Assembly: GCA_027064585.1 (NCBI GenBank)
Contig: JAMOPI010000028.1
Coordinates: forward strand, 62,001 to 126,000
Length of the DNA: 64,000 nt
Source: Candidatus Desulfofervidaceae bacterium
GTDB taxonomy: Bacteria; Desulfobacterota; Desulfofervidia; Desulfofervidales; Desulfofervidaceae
Direction: 5' to 3'
The notes under the pieces are model-generated. The model made no database searches. It was not told the DNA's origin and saw only the letters and a program-made list of their open reading frames with translations. A program made the translations under genes and the position numbers. Below, in pieces: positions 4,296 to 44,412 of the stretch. The stretch's first letter is position 1. The number at the start of each line of letters is the position of its first letter.

Positions 4296-4651
4296 GGATT
4301 TATCCTAACAATCCTCCTAGATGTGAAAAGGCGTAATATGCCTCGTCCTTACCTGCCATCTCTGGCGATTCGGGAAAAAAGCAGACTAACGTTCTCTGAG
4401 TGCTGGGTACACATTACCCTTGGAATCTTTACCTTCATCTAGGCTCCCTAGGCACTTTTTTGTTTTACCTTCTTTATGTTCAATTGGCAATACTTAATTC
4501 TTAATTCTTAATAGTTGAAGATTAAATTGGCAAATACCGTTAGACCTTATTGTTTCTTTACCTGTGTCTGAAGTTGAAAGATAAAAACTTGAAAACAGGT
4601 AAAAGGTGTTGTATGCAATATATTGTATTAGTTATAAAAGGAGAAATTAAT
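4296..4651. other. Gene-free stretch, possible weak terminator, otherwise unexplained
   Basis: No open frame here resembles a protein. A short inverted repeat (CTAGG-ctc-CCTAG, 4439-4451) followed by a T-rich run could end transcription of the hydrogenase protease gene. The part from about 4321 to 4450 has a more even base composition than the AT-rich DNA that follows and contains small complementary segments (GGGTA...TACCC type), so an RNA gene is possible. It matches no RNA family that I recognise. Confidence 0.3.
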
Positions 4652-32585: not shown

Positions 32586-33400
32586 TTAGTGATTTAAGTG
32601 TCTTTTTATCCTTTTTAATTTATTTTTAAGCTCTTTTTTATTCCCAAAGCGCATTTCATACCACATGTAAGCAAAATCTGTGATAAGTTGGCCCAATTGT
32701 GCGTCCTTTGGGGCTATTTGGGCGGCTATTTCTAGAAGCCCATCGGCGTCATGAAAGGAATAACCATAAGCCTTAAGAAGCTGTCGTAGTTTAAGGGCTG
32801 GGTTTGTTTTGATGTGCCTTAGCCCTAAAATAAGCAAAAGGACAATCATAACCAAACAAAAACCTATAAGAACAATTTTTTTGTATTTTTCTTTGTTTAA
32901 CTTAAGGCGAGGAGCTTTAGGCAAGGAAACAAAATGCTGTTTCAATGTCCTAAAAAATTGCTGCTGGCGGGAGAAATCATAGTTAAGAATGTACACATAC
33001 CAGCGTAGTCGCAAATAGTCTAGCCATTTAGTAAAGACAGAAACTGATTTGGTCTTTTCTAAGAGCCGAGCTGGGGTTGGGTTTATCAGATGCCAGGTAT
33101 GTCCATTCCAATATTCTACCCAGGTATGGGCATCTTTTTGTCTTACAATATAGTAATGTCCTACTTCATTCCACATACCGCCGTGATATCCTCCTATAAG
33201 CCGAGCCGGCACGCCAGCCGTGCGTAAGAGTAGAGTCATGGCCGAGGCAAAATGTTCACACCAACCCTGATGCGTAATGAATAAAAAGGTATAAATAGAA
33301 TCCTTTGTAAAAGGAGGGATCTTTTTGGTATAGCGAAAGGAAGGCTGAAGAAAGAAGGTTCTGATCTTCTCTGCTATTGTTTCAGGTGGATATACACCTG
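32586..33400 (-). pseudogene. Transglutaminase-like (TgpA-type) protein, C-terminal fragment
   Basis: Reading down from about 33400, the frame gives a transglutaminase core: the Cys in HQGWCEHFASAM, the His in DAHTWVEYW and the third position in LINPTPARL, where Asn stands where Asp is usual. A membrane helix (about KKIVLIGFCLVMIVLLLILG) and a polar tail follow. TgpA proteins normally start with several helices; here these are gone and the frame runs into the DUF58 fragment with no start codon. The first ATG (33239) would leave out the catalytic Cys. It is part of a decayed MoxR-DUF58-transglutaminase set. Confidence 0.75.
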
Positions 33401-33403
33401 GCT

Positions 33404-33709
33404 TTATTCCCTTTTCGTGTCTATACCTAAAAACAGACTAGGGAGGCATTTTTTATTGCGGATTTGGAGTACAAAAAGAGTTCTTTTTTGGGCGTATATT
33501 TCTTCTTTAGGACAAAAGACAAATTCTAACCCCAGCAAGTTGATAAAGGAGCTGAGACCAGACAAACCCATAACGGCCAGCATAAAAGAGGTGATCAAAT
33601 AAAGCATGTTGTTGCCTGTATTAACGGCCGCCACGCCGATAAAGAGGGTGAGAAAGATATAAATGGCCCCAGCCTTGGTAACTTTGACCCGAAATTGTCC
33701 CTTTTTCAT
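33404..33709 (-). pseudogene. DUF58 protein, N-terminal fragment
   Basis: 101 residues with two adjacent hydrophobic helices (AIYIFLTLFIGVAAVNTGNN onward) and then the start of the soluble domain (FVLQIRNKK), where it stops at 33404. Intact DUF58 proteins run to 300-400 residues with a VWA-like part. The rest is missing and transglutaminase sequence begins at once, so an internal deletion removed the DUF58 C-terminus and the TgpA N-terminus. Its start overlaps the MoxR stop, as in intact operons. Confidence 0.75.
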
Positions 33710-34641
33710 GTAGGCAAGGAAAACTGCTTTAGGAAGTCCTTTAAAAATTCCTCTTTGGTCTTAAAAGACATTTCCTCTTTAGGTAAAAGCCGATGGAAGG
33801 CAATGGGAATAAATACGGTCTTTATATCTTCAGGGAAGACATAATCTCTTCCTTCTAAAAAGGCATAGGCCTTAGCTGTCTTGGCCCAGGCCTGCGCGGC
33901 CCGCGGCGAAAGGCCGTAATAGAAATCTGCTGTTTGACGTGTGTAATTTACGATTTTTAACATATACGCAATGAGGTCATCATGAAGGGTGATATCTTTT
34001 ATCTCTGCCTGTAGTTTTAAACATTCTTCTGGGGTAAACAGAAACGCAAGTATTTAGCCCTTTCTTGGGAATCACCCCTTTTTAAAATAATCCCCTCTTG
34101 GTCGGCTGGAGGATATCCTAGACGCAACCGCATTAAAAAACGATCAAGCTGAGACTCAGGCAGGGGAAAGGTGCCATGAAGTTCCAGCGGGTTTTGGGTA
34201 GCAACGACAAAAAAGGGAGACGGCAAAGGCCTGACCTTTCCTTCAATGCTTACCTGCCTCTCTTCCATGGCCTCAAGGAGGGCACTCTGGGTCTTGGGCG
34301 TGGCCCGGTTAATTTCATCCGCCAGGATAATGTGGTGAAAGGATGGGACCAGGGCGAAAGAAAAACCGTTCTACTTTAGGAAGATATACCATTCCTCCCA
34401 AGATATCAACCGGAAGTAAATCACTTGTAAACTGAATGCGGGCAAAGGAACATCCTAATACTCTCGCCAAGGCCAGGGCCAGGGTTGTCTTGCCAGTTCC
34501 AGGTAGGTCTTCCAAAAGTAAGTGGCCTCCGGCTAAAAAACAAGTAAGGGCTAGCTTGATTTCCTCTTCTTTCCCAATAAGGACCTGCGAGAGTAAACTT
34601 AATCCCTCTTTCAACTTTCCAATTTCTTTAATCTTACCCAT
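33706..34641 (-). pseudogene. MoxR-family AAA+ ATPase, doubly frameshifted
   Basis: Three segments in two frames rebuild a full MoxR of about 311 residues. Segment 1 (34641 down to about 34340) has Walker [16 protein letters not shown]. Segment 2 has [21 protein letters not shown] (Walker B) and [10 protein letters not shown] (sensor 1). Segment 3 has the C-terminal lid with SPRAAQAWAKTAKAYAF. Frame changes lie near 34331-34346 and near 34035-34050 and compensate each other. MoxR ATPases act as chaperones for VWA/DUF58 partners, also broken here. The start overlaps the glnE end by 8 bp. Confidence 0.8.
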
Positions 34642-37540
34642 CAGGCAAATACTTCTCCCAAATTTTCCTTATGCGCATACGCAAATCTTGAAGGTAAGCC
34701 AGCGCCTCTTCTGGTGAAAGCTTTAATGGCGGTTCCTTTAAACCCCAGTTTTGCCACATTTCCTTTATCTTATCCTCAGACAGAGGCAACTCCGATGAGC
34801 GGTTATAAACGAGATTGAGCCGATGCTCTAAGGCCTTAAACAGGCTATACCCTTCCATAAGGGCCTGCACATCATCTGCCGGTATAAGCTTTATTTCCTT
34901 TAGGGCCTTAAAAAATTTAAAGGTATGTCTCCGTCTTATTTCAGGATAATTAGGCCCGTATATAAGCTGGAAATATTGGGCCAAAAATTCAACTTCAATT
35001 AACCCACCTTTACCTAACTTTAAGTTGAATTTTCCCTCTGTCTCCTTTGCCCTTTCTTCTAAGATACGCTGGCGCATGTGGCTTATTTCTTGTCTCCAAT
35101 CAATTTCAGTTTCTTCTTCAAAGAGAAGGAAATGGCGAAACTTCTCCCATGCCTCACCTAGAGCTTGATCTCCACATACCCAGCGGGCCTTTAAAAGGGT
35201 CTGCCTTTCCCAGGGCATGGCTTGTTTTTGGTAATACTCTTTAAAGGAAGGAAAAGATACAACCAAGGGTCCAAAACGGCCCGATGGACGCAGACGGGTA
35301 TCTACTTCATAACCCGGACCACCGGCATGAGGGACAGTAAGAATGGAAATCAGCCGCTGGGCCAGTTTGACGAAATACAGGTGGGCTTGCTGCTGTAAGG
35401 TCAGATCTGCTTCAGGGGGGTAATCGTAAATAAAAATTAAGTCAAGGTCTGAGTGATAGGCCATTTCTTGACTACCCAATTTACCAAGAGCAACGACAAG
35501 GAAGGGCAGGCTTAAAGGAGACATCTTTTTGTTTACCTCTTCTTTTGCCCAGATTAAGGCATGGGCCAAAGCAACATCGGCCACGGCCGTAAGCTGTTGG
35601 GAGACACGTATGGGACTTAGTTTTCCTGCCAGGTCAGCAAAACCAATGCGCAGCAGCTCTTCATTTTTAAACTGCCTTAGGGCCTCTATTTTTTCCTCTA
35701 AATCCAATTCTGTATGCCCATTAGAAACACAGCGTATATATGTCTGCAAGGTGGCCTCTATGTCTGCCCTTGTCTTAATAGGCTTGGCCTGAGAGGCAGA
35801 GATCAATTGGTCAAAGAGCTGAAAGTGCTTTATTAAGAGAGAAGAAAGTAATTCACTGGCGCCAAAGATTTGCAAGACTAATCTGCGGAGAGTAGGGTTT
35901 TCCTTCAGCAAGGCATAAAAGCCAGTCCTTGGCCCCAGACGTGAAATAAACTCCTCTAACCGGATTAAGGCTAGGTCAGGATTGATAGTTTGCTGCACTT
36001 CCTGTAAAAGTCTGGGCAGAAGGGCCAAAAGAAGGCGGTGCGACTGACCTGACACATGAGGGGTTTGCAGAAAACCTTTTAATTTCATAATACGCTCATA
36101 GGACCGCTCTGGATGTTTAAACCCCATTTGTTTAAGGTAAGAAATGGCCTCTTTTTCCAAAACTGTATGTGTAAAAAGAATCTTAAACACTTCTTCTTCC
36201 TTTCCTTCTTCCTTCGTGGCCAGAAGTTCCTTAAAAAAGGCATGCACTCCGCTTCTTATTTTGCGCAAGTGGTTAAAGAAATGTCTTAAGGCTATTTCTT
36301 CCCTGCGTTCTCCATATCCCATAAGCCTTGCGATTTTTAAAAGGGTATGGCGGTCGCGGGGCAAGGTGTGGGTTTGGGTATAGGCCGCCATCTGGCAAAG
36401 ATGCTCTAGCCGCCGCAGATAACGGTAGGCCCGACAGAGAAAGTCTGCATCTTCTGGTCTTATAAGCTTAGCATTCTTTAAGGCCGTAATGGCCGCAAAG
36501 GTCCGGTGCTGGCGCAGTTCAGGAAAACGGCCTCCGTAAATAAGCTGAAGGGTATGGACAAAAAATTCCAGCTCTCTAATGCCACCCTGACCTATCTTTA
36601 AATTAAAGCGTTTTTCCTTCTGGCTCTTAAAATCTAAGGCCCTTTTTAAGGATCTGATCTCATCCACGCCTGAAAAGTCAAAATAACGCCGATAAATAAA
36701 AGGGGTAAGACTATCTAAAAATGCCCTTCCCCTTTTTAAATCTCCGGCAATAGGCCTTGCCCGTAAAAGGGCCAATCGCTCTAAGGCCGTGCCAAAGTTT
36801 TCATAATAAATCTCAGCGGCGCGTGTAGATTGGATAATTTCGCTCTCCTTTCCCCCTGGCCGTAAGTTTAAATCTACCTTAAATAAGACCTCCCCATATT
36901 GGGGATGATGACATAAGGAGGTTATCTTTTCGGCCAATTTGACAAAAAGCTGGTGGTCATTCCTTGTTACATTTTCATTAGATTCATAAAAATAGACCAG
37001 GTCAATATCCGAATAATAATTAAGCTCCTCTGCTCCCAATTTTCCCAAACCAAAGATAAAAAAGCTTGTGGGAGGGCCTTCAGGAAAGACAGAAGGTAAG
37101 ACATGTTCATATATGGCCTGCAGGCAGGCAGAGGCCAAATCACTCCACTCCTTAAGGGATGCCTCTAAGGAGGTAAGCTGGTTAAGGTCTCTCGCCCAGA
37201 TACGCAGAAGCTCCTTGGCCTTAAACGCCCGAATAAGTTCAGGGAATTCCTTTTTGCCAATGATGGACTTAAGAAGGGTTAAAAATTCGGCCCTTGTCCT
37301 TGTTTGTTCAATCCCTCCCTCTAAAAAAAGCCAGGCTACAAGCTCTGGCCTTCTTACCAACAAATTGGTCAGATAGGTAGAACTAACGCAAATCTTCAAT
37401 AGTTGCTTGGCTGCTTCTGGTCGCCTTAGCAAAAAGGCAACCGTTTCCTCTGGCAGAACTTCTAACACCCGCTTAAAGGCAGCTTCGCCATAGGGCCAAA
37501 GGAGATGAGAAGAAAGGATTTGCAAGAGTTTATTTTTCAT
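34634..37540 (-). CDS. glnE: Bifunctional glutamine synthetase adenylyltransferase/deadenylase
   Basis: Controls glutamine synthetase by attaching or removing AMP in response to PII and glutamine. The 968-residue protein has two nucleotidyltransferase domains, each with the G-G-x-SDxD pattern: [20 protein letters not shown] in the N-half (about residue 170) and [20 protein letters not shown] in the C-half (about residue 690). Each is followed by a helical GlnD/PII-uridylyltransferase-type region. AGGAGG precedes the ATG, and its start lies inside the end of mltA (11-bp overlap). The adenylyltransferase and deadenylase sites both look intact. Confidence 0.94.
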
Positions 37541-38714: not shown

Positions 38715-38799
38715 CTGCATTTCTCCATTTACAGGGTTATCCCATTTATAGGTGATCAGGGTGGTTTTGTCTATAGCTTAAAAAAGAGACAGTGTTTTC

Positions 38800-39295
38800 C
38801 CCAAAATTCGTGATTGCCTTCCAAAAGACCTCGCAAGTAGGCTATAATAAACAATGTTTTAAAAATTCCTTTTACCTAAAGGGTGAAAAACGCTTATCTT
38901 TTCTTCAAGGCCCAATTATAATTATAGCGCCTCCGCTCGCTTATGCGGTCAAGGCCAAGCCCTACGGGTGGCCTTCGGCCAGCCTTGACCTTGCTCGCTA
39001 CGGCGCTTTTTTTCTTTTTGAGGCCGAGAAGGAAAAAGGAAAATTTCTTTTTTCCCTTCCTCCTTGCGATTTTTCTTTTTGCCAGGGCCGAGGGCGGTCA
39101 AGGGCAAGCCCGCAGGGCGCAGCCTGCGCCTTTAGGCGCAGGTCTGAACGAACGCAGTGAGTGTAGACCCTTGACCGTATAACCGAGGCCCTGGCATATA
39201 ATTTTTTAAGTAAGGAGGGGATAATTATGGTGTTTTTTTCTTGTTTTTTCTTATTTTTAAATGTCTTTCTCCAAAACTCAATCGCGGATTTTGGG
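38800..39295 (-). repeat. Hairpin repeat copy F (full length, inverse to copy G)
   Basis: 496 bp, the longest copy. The ends are CCCAAAATTCGTGATTG (38800-38816) and CAATCGCGGATTTTGGG (39279-39295). From the left it contains TTTTACCTAAAGGGTGAAAA, the block AATTATAATTATAGCGCC, the GGTCAAGGCC hairpin, an A/T-rich GGAAAAAGGAAAATTTC-type palindrome, the second hairpin (GGTCAAGGGC...CCCTTGACC) and TATAATTTTTTAAGTAAGGAGG. It lies 50 bp beyond the stop of the Crp/Fnr gene and mirrors copy G on the other side. Confidence 0.88.
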
Positions 39296-39344
39296 GTTTT
39301 GCATAATATAGCATAAACTTAATTTAAATATGTATAAGATCTCT

Positions 39345-40047: not shown

Positions 40048-40497
40048 CCCAAAATCCGCGATTGATTTATATGAGAAGTTTCCCTTTCTCTTTACTTACA
40101 AAAATTATACACCAAGGCCTCGTTAGGTAGTCAAGAGTCTCCGCTCGCTTTGCTCGCTCCGACCTGCTCTGTGGGCAGACTGTGCTCTTCGGGCTTGCCC
40201 TTGACTACACTCGGCCTTGGCGAAAAAGAAATTGTGAAAAGAAGAAGGAAAAAGAAAACCTTCCTTTTTCCCTTCTGGTCTCAAAAAAATTGTGCCGAAG
40301 CGAGCGAGGTCAAGGCTGGCTGCTAAGCCACCCGTAGGGCTTGGCCTTGACCGCTAAGCGAGCGAAGGCCCAATAATTATGATTGGGCTTGAGGGAAAGA
40401 TAAATGTTTCTCACCTTTTAAGTGAAAGGTATTTTTAAAAAACGCTTTATTACAGCCCACTTGTGGGCTCTATTGGAGGGCAATCACGGATTTTGGG
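40048..40497 (+). repeat. Hairpin repeat copy G (full length)
   Basis: 450 bp with ends CCCAAAATCCGCGATTG (40048-40064) and CAATCACGGATTTTGGG (40481-40497), complementary at 16 of 17 positions, the best-matched ends among the full-length copies. It holds both GC-rich hairpins, the central A/T-rich palindrome and a CCCACTTGTGGG stem near the right end. The last GGG merges with the ribosome-binding site GGAGGAGG of the next gene, so that gene's promoter must be inside the element or absent. Confidence 0.9.
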
Positions 40498-40509
40498 AGG
40501 AGGTTTGTG

Positions 40510-41235
40510 ATGGCAGAGGTAAAAAGTTTAAAGGATTAGGCAGGGAGTGAACACAGGCGGTTTGAGGTTGTAAGAATTGAAGGAGGGAAGGACCTCAAAG
40601 AGTATCTTGAAGATTTGGGTATCAAAGAAGGCGAAGAGATTGAGTTAGAGTCCACCTTTTCTCATGAGCATCGTGGTCCTTTGGCAGTGGAAATACAGGG
40701 CAAAGAAATAGTTTTGGCCCAGGGAATTGCAAATAAGATGGTTGTAGAGACAGGGAATGGGAAATTTGTGCATCTTCTGGAATTGGAGGCCGGTGATAAT
40801 GGAGTGGTTAAAGAAATTGAGGGTGGTAAAGAAATCAGAGATGGGCTTGAACACTTGGGTCTAAAGGTAGGAGAAAGTATCAAGGTTAAAGGGCATTTAG
40901 CCGAAGAAAATTACACCATTGAATTTAATGGAAATCAAATTGAGCTTTGCACAGGAGAGGCCTCAAAGTTGTTGATTAAAGTAGGGGACAAGGTGTTTCA
41001 ACTCTGCCAGCTTGAGGCCGACGCCGAAGGCGAATTTGTCGGTATTATTAGTGGTATTGCCTTGGAAGAAAGACCAAAAAAGGCCGGAATAGAAAAAGGG
41101 GAAAACATAAAGCTAGTTTCAAGAAAATCTACTACGGGTCCGGCCAAGCACATTGGTTGCATCTTTTATCTAACACTTCCAGGTGGTACTACCGTTTCTG
41201 TAGGCCACGGCATGGCCGAAAAAATATATGGTTAG
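40510..41235 (+). CDS. Protein with three FeoA-like domains, interrupted by an early in-frame TAG
   Basis: Three tandem FeoA/SH3-like units share the pattern (V-x-I-EGGK-L...LGI-x-GE-I), starting near 40580, 40805 and 41015. The third is more divergent and ends VGHGMAEKIYG. FeoA-type domains modulate the FeoB iron transporter. The natural start is the ATG at 40510 with GGAGGAGG upstream, but codon 10 is TAG (40537-40539), in the same frame as everything that follows. No other good start lies before the first domain; a TTG at 40615 would cut into it. This could be a nonsense mutation, readthrough or an error. Confidence 0.65.
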
Positions 41236-41307: not shown

Positions 41308-41418
41308 ATGAAGGTAGTTGTTCCCCAAAGGCATAAGTGTATTGAAGCCATCCAAATGCACCGCATGGAGGCCATCAAGCTTTTGATAGCCGGCCTCTCC
41401 CACATTTCCCTGCTGTAA
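41308..41418 (+). CDS. Possible 36-residue peptide upstream of the feo operon
   Basis: Starts MKVVVPQRHKCIEAIQMHRM and ends LSHISLL, with GAGGAG nine bases before the ATG. The base composition is more even than that of the surrounding spacer, and the frame lies between a terminator and the feo promoter. It has one cysteine and several histidines. I do not recognise it; it may be the remnant of a longer gene. The rest of 41236-41460 shows only the terminator and AT-rich DNA. Confidence 0.35.
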   Translation: MKVVVPQRHKCIEAIQMHRMEAIKLLIAGLSHISLL

Positions 41419-41528: not shown

Positions 41529-41870
41529 ATGTCAGATTTAGTATTGGTAAGCATTGCCTTTGCTCTGTTTATAGTTTGCCCTAGGATGGCGGGTATGGCC
41601 GCAGTGATTAGTCGGGCTACTAATTTAAGCTTGATAAAAATAGCTGTGTTTGGGAGTTTATTTTCTATACCTTTGACGATTATTATGGTTTTGGTTTTTA
41701 GACGTTGGGGGCTAATAGGTGCCTTAAGTTTTTGCGTGCTGACTGATTTAGGTTCTGCTTTGCTTATGAGGGAAATTAATCTCAAGGCAGGACTGGAAAC
41801 ATTGGTTGTTGCCTTATTTGTACTTTTAGGTGTTAAAGTGGCTTCGTGGATTTCTGCTTTAGTTGGTTAG
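41529..41870 (+). CDS. Small membrane protein at the head of the feo operon
   Basis: 113 residues with about four hydrophobic helices (roughly 3-20, 36-56, 62-82 and 88-108) and short basic loops. An AGGAGGGAG site precedes the ATG. The only clue is position: it follows a strong promoter and leads two feoA genes and feoB in one direction. I do not recognise the family; a role in ferrous iron uptake is inferred from context. Confidence 0.7.
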   Translation: MSDLVLVSIAFALFIVCPRMAGMAAVISRATNLSLIKIAVFGSLFSIPLTIIMVLVFRRWGLIGALSFCVLTDLGSALLMREINLKAGLETLVVALFVLLGVKVASWISALVG

Positions 41871-41943: not shown

Positions 41944-42168
41944 ATGTATTTGACATCACTTAAAAAGGGGCAGAAAGGTAGGGTAAGGTCAGTTAAGGGC
42001 AATGGTGCCGTTAAACAACGGCTCATGCAGATGGGTATTGTACCAGGAGAAATGGTAAAGGTGGAAAGGGTAGCTCCTTTGGGTAGTCCCATAGATGTGC
42101 TGGTCAAGGGTTACCACTTATCTTTAAGAAAAGAAGAGGCAAATTGTGTAGAAGTGGAGGTGATGTAA
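41944..42168 (+). CDS. feoA: FeoA ferrous iron transport accessory protein
   Basis: 74-residue SH3-like FeoA domain: a start rich in Leu/Lys, then GNGAVKQRLMQMGIVPGEMVKVERVAPLG and DVLVKGYHLSLRKEEA, the standard FeoA pattern. It is thought to regulate FeoB at the inner membrane. A strong AGGAGGTG site precedes it. First of two single-domain feoA genes before feoB. Confidence 0.92.
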   Translation: MYLTSLKKGQKGRVRSVKGNGAVKQRLMQMGIVPGEMVKVERVAPLGSPIDVLVKGYHLSLRKEEANCVEVEVM

Positions 42169-42173
42169 AGGCA

Positions 42174-42398
42174 ATGTGTCCCCTAAGCATAGTAGAAAAC
42201 GGCAGGGAAGTGGAGGTTTTGGATATAAGAGGTGGTTTTGGTTTATGTCAGCGTTTAAGTAGGATGAGGATTTACCCAGGTATACGGATTAGAATTTTAA
42301 ACAACGGTCGTCCAGGGCCTGTGATTATTGCTGTAGGCGAAAAACGGTTTGGTTTAGGCTTTGGTATGGCCCATCGGATCTTTGTAAAGCCATTGTAG
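42174..42398 (+). CDS. feoA: Second FeoA-domain protein
   Basis: 74 residues with the FeoA pattern [22 protein letters not shown] and a C-terminal [12 protein letters not shown]. The ATG at 42174 is six bases after the first feoA stop. An upstream in-frame ATG (42144) would overlap that gene and is less likely. Paired feoA genes before feoB occur in several anaerobes. The feoB start follows 8 bases after its stop. Confidence 0.85.
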
Positions 42399-42406
42399 GA
42401 GGGAAA

Positions 42407-44412
42407 ATGGGAGAAACAGTCATTTGTTTGGCAGGGAATCCCAATAGTGGAAAAACCACTATCTTTAATGCCCTGACTGGGGCTCGCCAAAAGGTGGGCA
42501 ACTGGCCAGGGGTTACCGTAGAAAAAAAGAAGGAGATTTTTTAGAGCAAGGCAAGCACATTCATGTTGTGGATTTGCCAGGTACATATAGCTTAACGGCC
42601 TATTCCATTGATGAACGCATTGCAAGGGATTTTTTGATTAGGGAACATCCTGATGTAGTTGTGGTGATTGTAGATGCTACAAATTTGGAAAGAAATCTTT
42701 ATTTAGCCGTTGAATTGTTAGAAATGGGTGCCAATGTAGTGCTTGATCTTAATATGATGGACATGGTCTCCAAAAGGGGCTGGCGGATAGATTTGGATAA
42801 GCTTTCCCAGGTCTTAAATGTACCAGTAGTGCCTACTGTGGCCACAAAAGGTGAAGGCTTAGAACAGTTAAAAACAACCGTTCTTAAAGCAAAAGACAGA
42901 GATGTAACTCCTTTAAAGATAGATTATGGTCCTGTTGTGGAAAAAATGTTAAGTAAATTAACAGAGTTACTTAATTCTAAAAAAGATAAAAGCATCAATA
43001 TTCCTAGCCGGTGGTTGGCAATAAAGTTGTTAGAAGATGACGTCCAGGTAAAAGAATGGGTACAAGGATTTACAGGAGGCAGAGAAATCCACGAGGAAGC
43101 AGACAAAATGAGACAGGAGCTTCAGGAAAGGCTAGGACAAGATGTAGAGACATACCTTATAGAAAGAAGGTATGGGTTTATCTCTGGTTTGGTAAAAGAA
43201 TGTGTGCAAAGACCAGCCGCAGTAGAAGAGAAATTAACCCTTTCAGACAAAATAGATAAAGTTGTACTCAATCGCTGGCTAGGTATTCCTTTATTTTTAC
43301 TCTTTATGTGGATTACCTTTAAACTGGTTTTTGATGTAGGTGGTCCTATTGCGGACCAAATAGATAGCCTCTTTGGCTGGCTGGGAGATGCTGCTAAACA
43401 TCTTTTGGGTGAAAATTGGTTTTCTTCCTTGCTGAGTGACGGCATTATTGCTGGTGTAGGTTCAGTCCTGGTCTTTTTGCCCAATATCCTCATTCTCTTT
43501 TTTATGATTGGTTTCTTAGAAGACTGTGGTTATATGGCTAGGGCAGCCTTTGTCATGGATAGGTTTATGCACGCTTTAGGGCTTCATGGCAAGTCATTTA
43601 TTCCCATGATCTTGGGATTTGGCTGCAACATTCCAGGGATTATGGCCTGCCGTACCCTTGAATCTAGAAAAGACAGAATTTTGACCATTTTGATTAATCC
43701 CTTTATGTTATGTTCGGCCCGGCTGCCTATCTATGTGCTTTTTGCCGGCACATTCTTTCCCAAACACGCCGGCACGGTCATCTTCATCATGTATGCTTTG
43801 GGTATTGTTGTAGCCATCTTAACAGGGCTCTTGTTCAAAAATCTCTTTTTTAAGGGCGAAGTTGCTCCTTTAATCATGGAATTGCCTCCTTATCGCCTAC
43901 CTACCTTAAAAAGTGTACTTTTGCACCTGTGGGAACGCTCGTTTATGTTTGTCAAGAAGGCAGGCACAATTATTATGGTTGGTGTGGTGTTGGTTTGGCT
44001 TTTATCCTCTATGCCTCCGGGGGTAGAATATGCCAGTGAAAAAAGTTGGATTGGGCATCTGGGTAAATTTTTTGCGCCGTTGTTTAAACCAGCGGGTTTT
44101 GGTTTTTGGCAGGCCGCTGTGGCCTTAATCTTTGGTATTCTGGCCAAAGAGGTAGTTGTTGGTACCCTAGGCACCCTTTATGGTGTGGAAGAAAAAGGAC
44201 TAAATAAGGTCTTGCCTAAGTATTTCACTAAACTATCTGCTTTTTCTTTCATGACCATGTCCTTGCTTTACATTCCCTGTATTGCGGCCATTGGAACAAT
44301 CAAGCAAGAAACAAATTCCTGGAAATGGACGGCCTTAGCGGTGGGTTGGAGTTTGTTTGTAGGCTGGACGATGGCGGTTTTGTTTTATCAAATGGGAAGA
44401 ATATTTGCTTAA
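42407..44412 (+). CDS. feoB: Ferrous iron transporter FeoB, frame broken at an A7 run
   Basis: Inner-membrane Fe(II) permease with a GTP-binding G domain. The start at 42407 (AGGAGGG upstream) gives the G1 loop [16 protein letters not shown] and G2 [12 protein letters not shown], then stops at 42541-42543. One more A in the A7 run (42522-42528) would restore [12 protein letters not shown] and lead into the long frame with G3 [17 protein letters not shown] (G4), a helical GDI region and the membrane part with two Gate motifs ([20 protein letters not shown]). All later parts are intact to 44412. Taken literally, the protein would lack its P-loop. Confidence 0.85.

Follow-up and report, generated by a model that had tools for sequence, protein, structure and literature searches.

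The window, by which we mean the whole 64,000-nucleotide stretch of DNA that was analyzed, contains an iron-transport (Feo) operon in which a gene for a triple-FeoA protein, feoA3, is interrupted by an in-frame TAG. The source lineage is of the Desulfofervidaceae type and is most likely thermophilic and sulfate-reducing. The features of the locus are as follows, with the same-genus relative used for comparison designated G001.

40048..40497, + strand: dispersed 450-bp element bounded by 17-nt terminal inverted repeats, ending directly before the feoA3 ribosome-binding site
40498..40509, + strand: ribosome-binding site AGGAGG plus spacer, resembling that of the relatives (alignment with relatives)
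40510..41235, + strand: feoA3, broken triple-FeoA gene (profile and intact homologues)
40537..40539, + strand: in-frame TAG in place of the TGG (Trp) of the closest relatives (aligned homologues)
41224..41229, + strand: insertion of one T near the 3' end of feoA3, ATATATGG versus ATAATGG (aligned relatives)
41308..41418, + strand: histidine kinase remnant, 32 residues of which match a 256-residue G001 protein (comparison with G001)
41529..41870, + strand: small membrane protein gene, intact (G001 comparison)
41944..42168, + strand: single-domain feoA, intact (Pfam FeoA)
42144..42398, + strand: another intact single-domain feoA; the N-terminal extension that overlaps the previous gene may be unreal
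42407..44412, + strand: feoB, split by the loss of one base (G001 comparison)

The feoA3 frame starts at the ATG at 40510, which is preceded by AGGAGGTTTGTG, meets the TAG at codon 10 and is then open from 40540 to a second TAG at 41233-41235, a run of 231 codons. The part that follows the first TAG scores 89.8 bits against the Pfam FeoA profile in two stretches (cut-off 23), with units 1 and 2 passing the cut-off and unit 3 being weak on its own (12.9 bits). Two intact relatives, L081 and L082, show three Pfam FeoA stretches each, indicating that the three-unit reading of feoA3 is right. The features reported for this frame in the preliminary description, namely an ATG preceded by a strong ribosome-binding site, a TAG as the tenth codon and three FeoA domains, are thus present. 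Inspection of the in-frame starts also bore out its statement that FeoA domain 1 is preceded by no other good start; the next in-frame start codon after the TAG, a TTG at 40615, has no ribosome-binding site and falls inside that domain. At the other end of the gene the extra T displaces the final six codons from the frame, such that the window reads AEKIYG* where the relatives read AEKIMVSP.., and the conserved MVSP tail is missing as a result. A promoter scan 5' of feoA3 gave matches no commoner than those obtained in shuffles.

A putative FeoA-type SH3-like fold in each unit was examined in a predicted structure of the intact G001 triple-FeoA protein. One strand-helix arrangement recurs three times along the chain, albeit with a low overall confidence (pTM 0.43), and in this model codon 10 would fall in a short helix just ahead of the first strand of unit 1. 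A structure search with the model returned weak matches to FeoA entries of the PDB, none of them significant.

Codon 10 and the triple-FeoA architecture

We searched for intact feoA3 homologues among relatives of the genome, and a wider genome scan added Desulfurella. The relatives provided four intact homologues, one in G003 (84% identity), one in G001 (70%), one in G002 (55%) and a second copy in G003 (54%), the frames of which align with window feoA3 from the ATG onward. All four have N-termini that align with the nine codons ahead of the TAG, indicating that the leader from ATG to TAG is not a product of chance. At codon 10, G001 and the closer G003 homologue have TGG, and G002 and the other G003 copy have TAT, so that a TAG occurs at this position in none of the four aligned homologues, and the homologous residue in Desulfurella acetivorans is Phe. 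Since the homologues carry Trp, Tyr or Phe here, the TAG takes the place of a conserved aromatic residue, and a single G-to-A substitution in TGG is its simplest origin. A pair of small indels around codon 10 is a possible, less simple route given that the following codon differs as well, with the window reading GAT TAG GCA, G003 reading GAT TGG GTA and G001 reading GAT TGG CTA.

The preliminary description had called three FeoA units in one chain unusual, which is a fair but overstated assessment as four other genomes hold this architecture intact. Specifically, there are five intact copies in G001, G002, G003 (which has two) and Desulfurella acetivorans A63, all equal to feoA3 in length and architecture and 53-84% identical to it, but differing from the window copy by having an uninterrupted frame with an aromatic residue at codon 10. 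A scan of 84,980 species genomes for triple FeoA found only the same-genus relative and Desulfurella, and thereby no further strain of the species to which the window belongs. The gene is near feoB in both of these, and in Desulfurella it is next to feoB. Judged from these sequences, triple FeoA is a rare but conserved architecture, uncommon rather than unique, and its conservation extends over the family Desulfofervidaceae and Desulfurella. A 2022 survey of Feo systems reported that two FeoA-like domains can share one protein, and it regarded what multiple FeoA proteins do within an operon as an open question (PMC8749426). The multi-domain proteins of the FeoA family (PF04023) are like feoA3 in having repeated FeoA-type domains with single feoA and feoB genes beside them, while feoA3 differs from the two-domain proteins by its third unit and by the interruption of the window copy.

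Lesions in the Feo operon and neighboring loci

In G001 the gene order is NifX-like zinc-ribbon, feoA3, DUF2325-like, histidine kinase, small membrane protein, feoA, feoA and feoB, where the NifX-like, DUF2325-like and histidine kinase labels come from reading the translations and not from a family search. The window operon lacks the NifX-like zinc-ribbon gene, which is the 5' neighbor of feoA3 in G001, the DUF2325-like gene is deleted, and the histidine kinase is reduced to the remnant listed above. In feoB a base has been lost near 42522-42530, after the P-loop, which leaves the P-loop part (42407-42544) and the remainder in different frames. We dropped an initial assignment of this loss to an A from an A8 run, as G001 has A7GG at this site, which makes a G a possible candidate for the lost base. 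None of the disabling lesions (the TAG, the extra T, the deletion, the kinase remnant and the base lost from feoB) is present in the intact G001 genes or in the feoA3 gene of G003. A second feoA-feoB pair, located elsewhere in the genome on C25, is intact with a feoB frame that is open at full length, and its counterpart in G003 is 71-77% identical.

Similarity to the relatives starts at 40498, one base past the dispersed element, so the synteny breakpoint coincides with the end of the element. The terminal repeat of this element has 121 matches genome-wide as compared to 0 for a control pattern, and the element itself, which is non-coding and approximately 450-500 bp long, has 56 matches in the genome of the window and 37 in the same-family G004, with no matches in the same-genus G001. 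Its terminal inverted repeats and many dispersed copies are features shared with MITEs. Some copies are flanked by target duplications of 4-5 bp; the copy beside feoA3 differs from MITEs in having no matching flanking repeats. The copies at 40048-40497 and 38799-39296 are mutually inverted and flank a crp/fnr-type gene.

A survey of damage covered the window and 40 kb beside it and drew on coding-potential scores, a selection of Pfam scans and a single G001 contig; most of the comparable genes are intact. An exception, at window 33400-34668, is a moxR-type AAA ATPase gene (33.7-34.7 kb) that carries two disrupting indels, both in unremarkable sequence away from long homopolymers, followed by a disrupted gene that we take to be of the DUF58 type. 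Intact copies of this moxR gene occur in G002, G003 and G005; none was found in the same-genus G001. Additional observations are an SDF-family dicarboxylate symporter gene in the flank (L026:3394-4639) that lies in two frames, with the split near an A7 run, and a short remnant in two frames, at window 4321-4480, of a 509-residue protein, the G001 version of which is whole.

Sequencing or assembly errors could in principle account for the TAG and the nearby frameshifts, with the operon being intact in the cell. Several frameshifts do occur within ~100 kb of this contig, the feoB slip and the split in the symporter gene are at or beside A7 runs, and the substitutions in feoA3 appear constrained. 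However, the TAG is a substitution and not a homopolymer indel, it is accompanied by losses of whole genes, and the moxR indels are away from long homopolymers. Furthermore, ~30 A7 runs sit in intact long genes, and large genes, among them the 968-residue ORF at 34634-37540, are uninterrupted. As the damage is found in a few accessory loci and is accompanied by gene deletions, decay fits better than random error, and we regard the error explanation as unlikely.

Constraint on feoA3 and decoding of the TAG

With G001 as the outgroup, we counted 20 synonymous and 18 non-synonymous feoA3 changes in the window lineage and 19 and 20, respectively, in the G003 lineage, with a pairwise dN/dS of 0.19. 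Comparison of the two lineages reveals no relaxed constraint on the feoA3 codons, and judging by its substitutions feoA3 has been constrained for most of its history. This constraint implies a recent nonsense change or, alternatively, the continued production of some protein. Relaxed selection is expected of old pseudogenes and not of young ones, so its absence limits the age of the lesion and not the claim of decay.

A product could be made if translation restarted past the TAG, giving a shortened FeoA protein with domains 2 and 3, and the 231 open codons and their seemingly constrained changes speak for it. Nonetheless, restart is highly improbable given that the first in-frame ATG is at 40738 and the TTG and GTG codons before it have no clear ribosome-binding site. 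Even the earliest possible start, the TTG at 40615, drops the beginning of domain 1, such that a restart product could at most be one without the start of that domain, and the 3' end of feoA3 is frameshifted as well. A broader proposal, that restart or leaky decoding of the stop yields a useful shortened FeoA and that the operon is regulatory or partly working and not dead, we consider a shade less probable again.

Pyrrolysine decoding is known from anaerobes and shares with feoA3 an in-frame TAG in an anaerobic organism, and the preliminary description had listed it as an option together with a search of the genome for pylS and its tRNA. In that search, which we ran, the best PylS match to TIGR02367 reached 20 bits, well below the cut-off of 178 that was exceeded by a Methanosarcina control, and a CTA anticodon was present in 0 of 42 tRNA matches to the RF00005 model, which an atypical pylT could escape. 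Release factor 1 (RF1) is present in the genome, and among the 119 coding candidates of 104 kb, 25 terminate in TAG, as is expected of an ordinary stop codon. The pyrrolysine literature that we found concerns, by its titles and abstracts, archaea and not Desulfobacterota. Given the PylS score, the tRNA complement, the presence of RF1 and the ordinary use of TAG, pyrrolysine decoding or a general reassignment of TAG is very unlikely, and feoA3 further departs from pyrrolysine decoders by having an aromatic residue and not lysine at the homologous site. Reading of the TAG as any amino acid, whether by pyrrolysine, a suppressor tRNA or programmed readthrough, is exceedingly improbable, as it accords with the continuation of the frame but conflicts with the above results and with the TGG or TAT codons of the relatives, and would be incapable of curing the other lesions of the operon.

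Origin of the interruption in feoA3

Most likely, a nonsense mutation of the ordinary kind gave rise to the TAG in feoA3; it would be of recent date and would belong to a redundant Feo operon that is undergoing decay. Among the options of the preliminary description, nonsense mutation is the one favored by the TGG at codon 10 of the relatives and by the decay of the operon as a whole, while decoding by pyrrolysine or a suppressor tRNA found no support. The sequence lesions and the intact C25 pair are direct observations, from which we infer redundancy, a loss of function and the order of events. The conserved aromatic codon TGG would have recently changed to TAG in the triple-FeoA gene, a rearrangement ending at the dispersed terminal-repeat element would have removed the front of the operon, and indels and a deletion would have broken feoA3, the histidine kinase gene and feoB. 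The ribosome is predicted to halt after nine codons, leaving the full triple-FeoA protein unmade, and the intact C25 feoA-feoB pair presumably provides for iron uptake. The lineage would then be one with two Feo systems that is losing one of them, the break in that system lying at a dispersed repeat element. This reading also removes one candidate for recoding, as the TAG can be accounted for by the TGG of the relatives and by the decay of the surrounding operon.

Finally, the closest feoA3 homologue is that of G003, which belongs to a different genus, and not that of the same-genus relative, while mltA is only 62% identical to its G003 counterpart. The contrast between feoA3 and mltA in their identity to G003 suggests horizontal exchange of feoA3.
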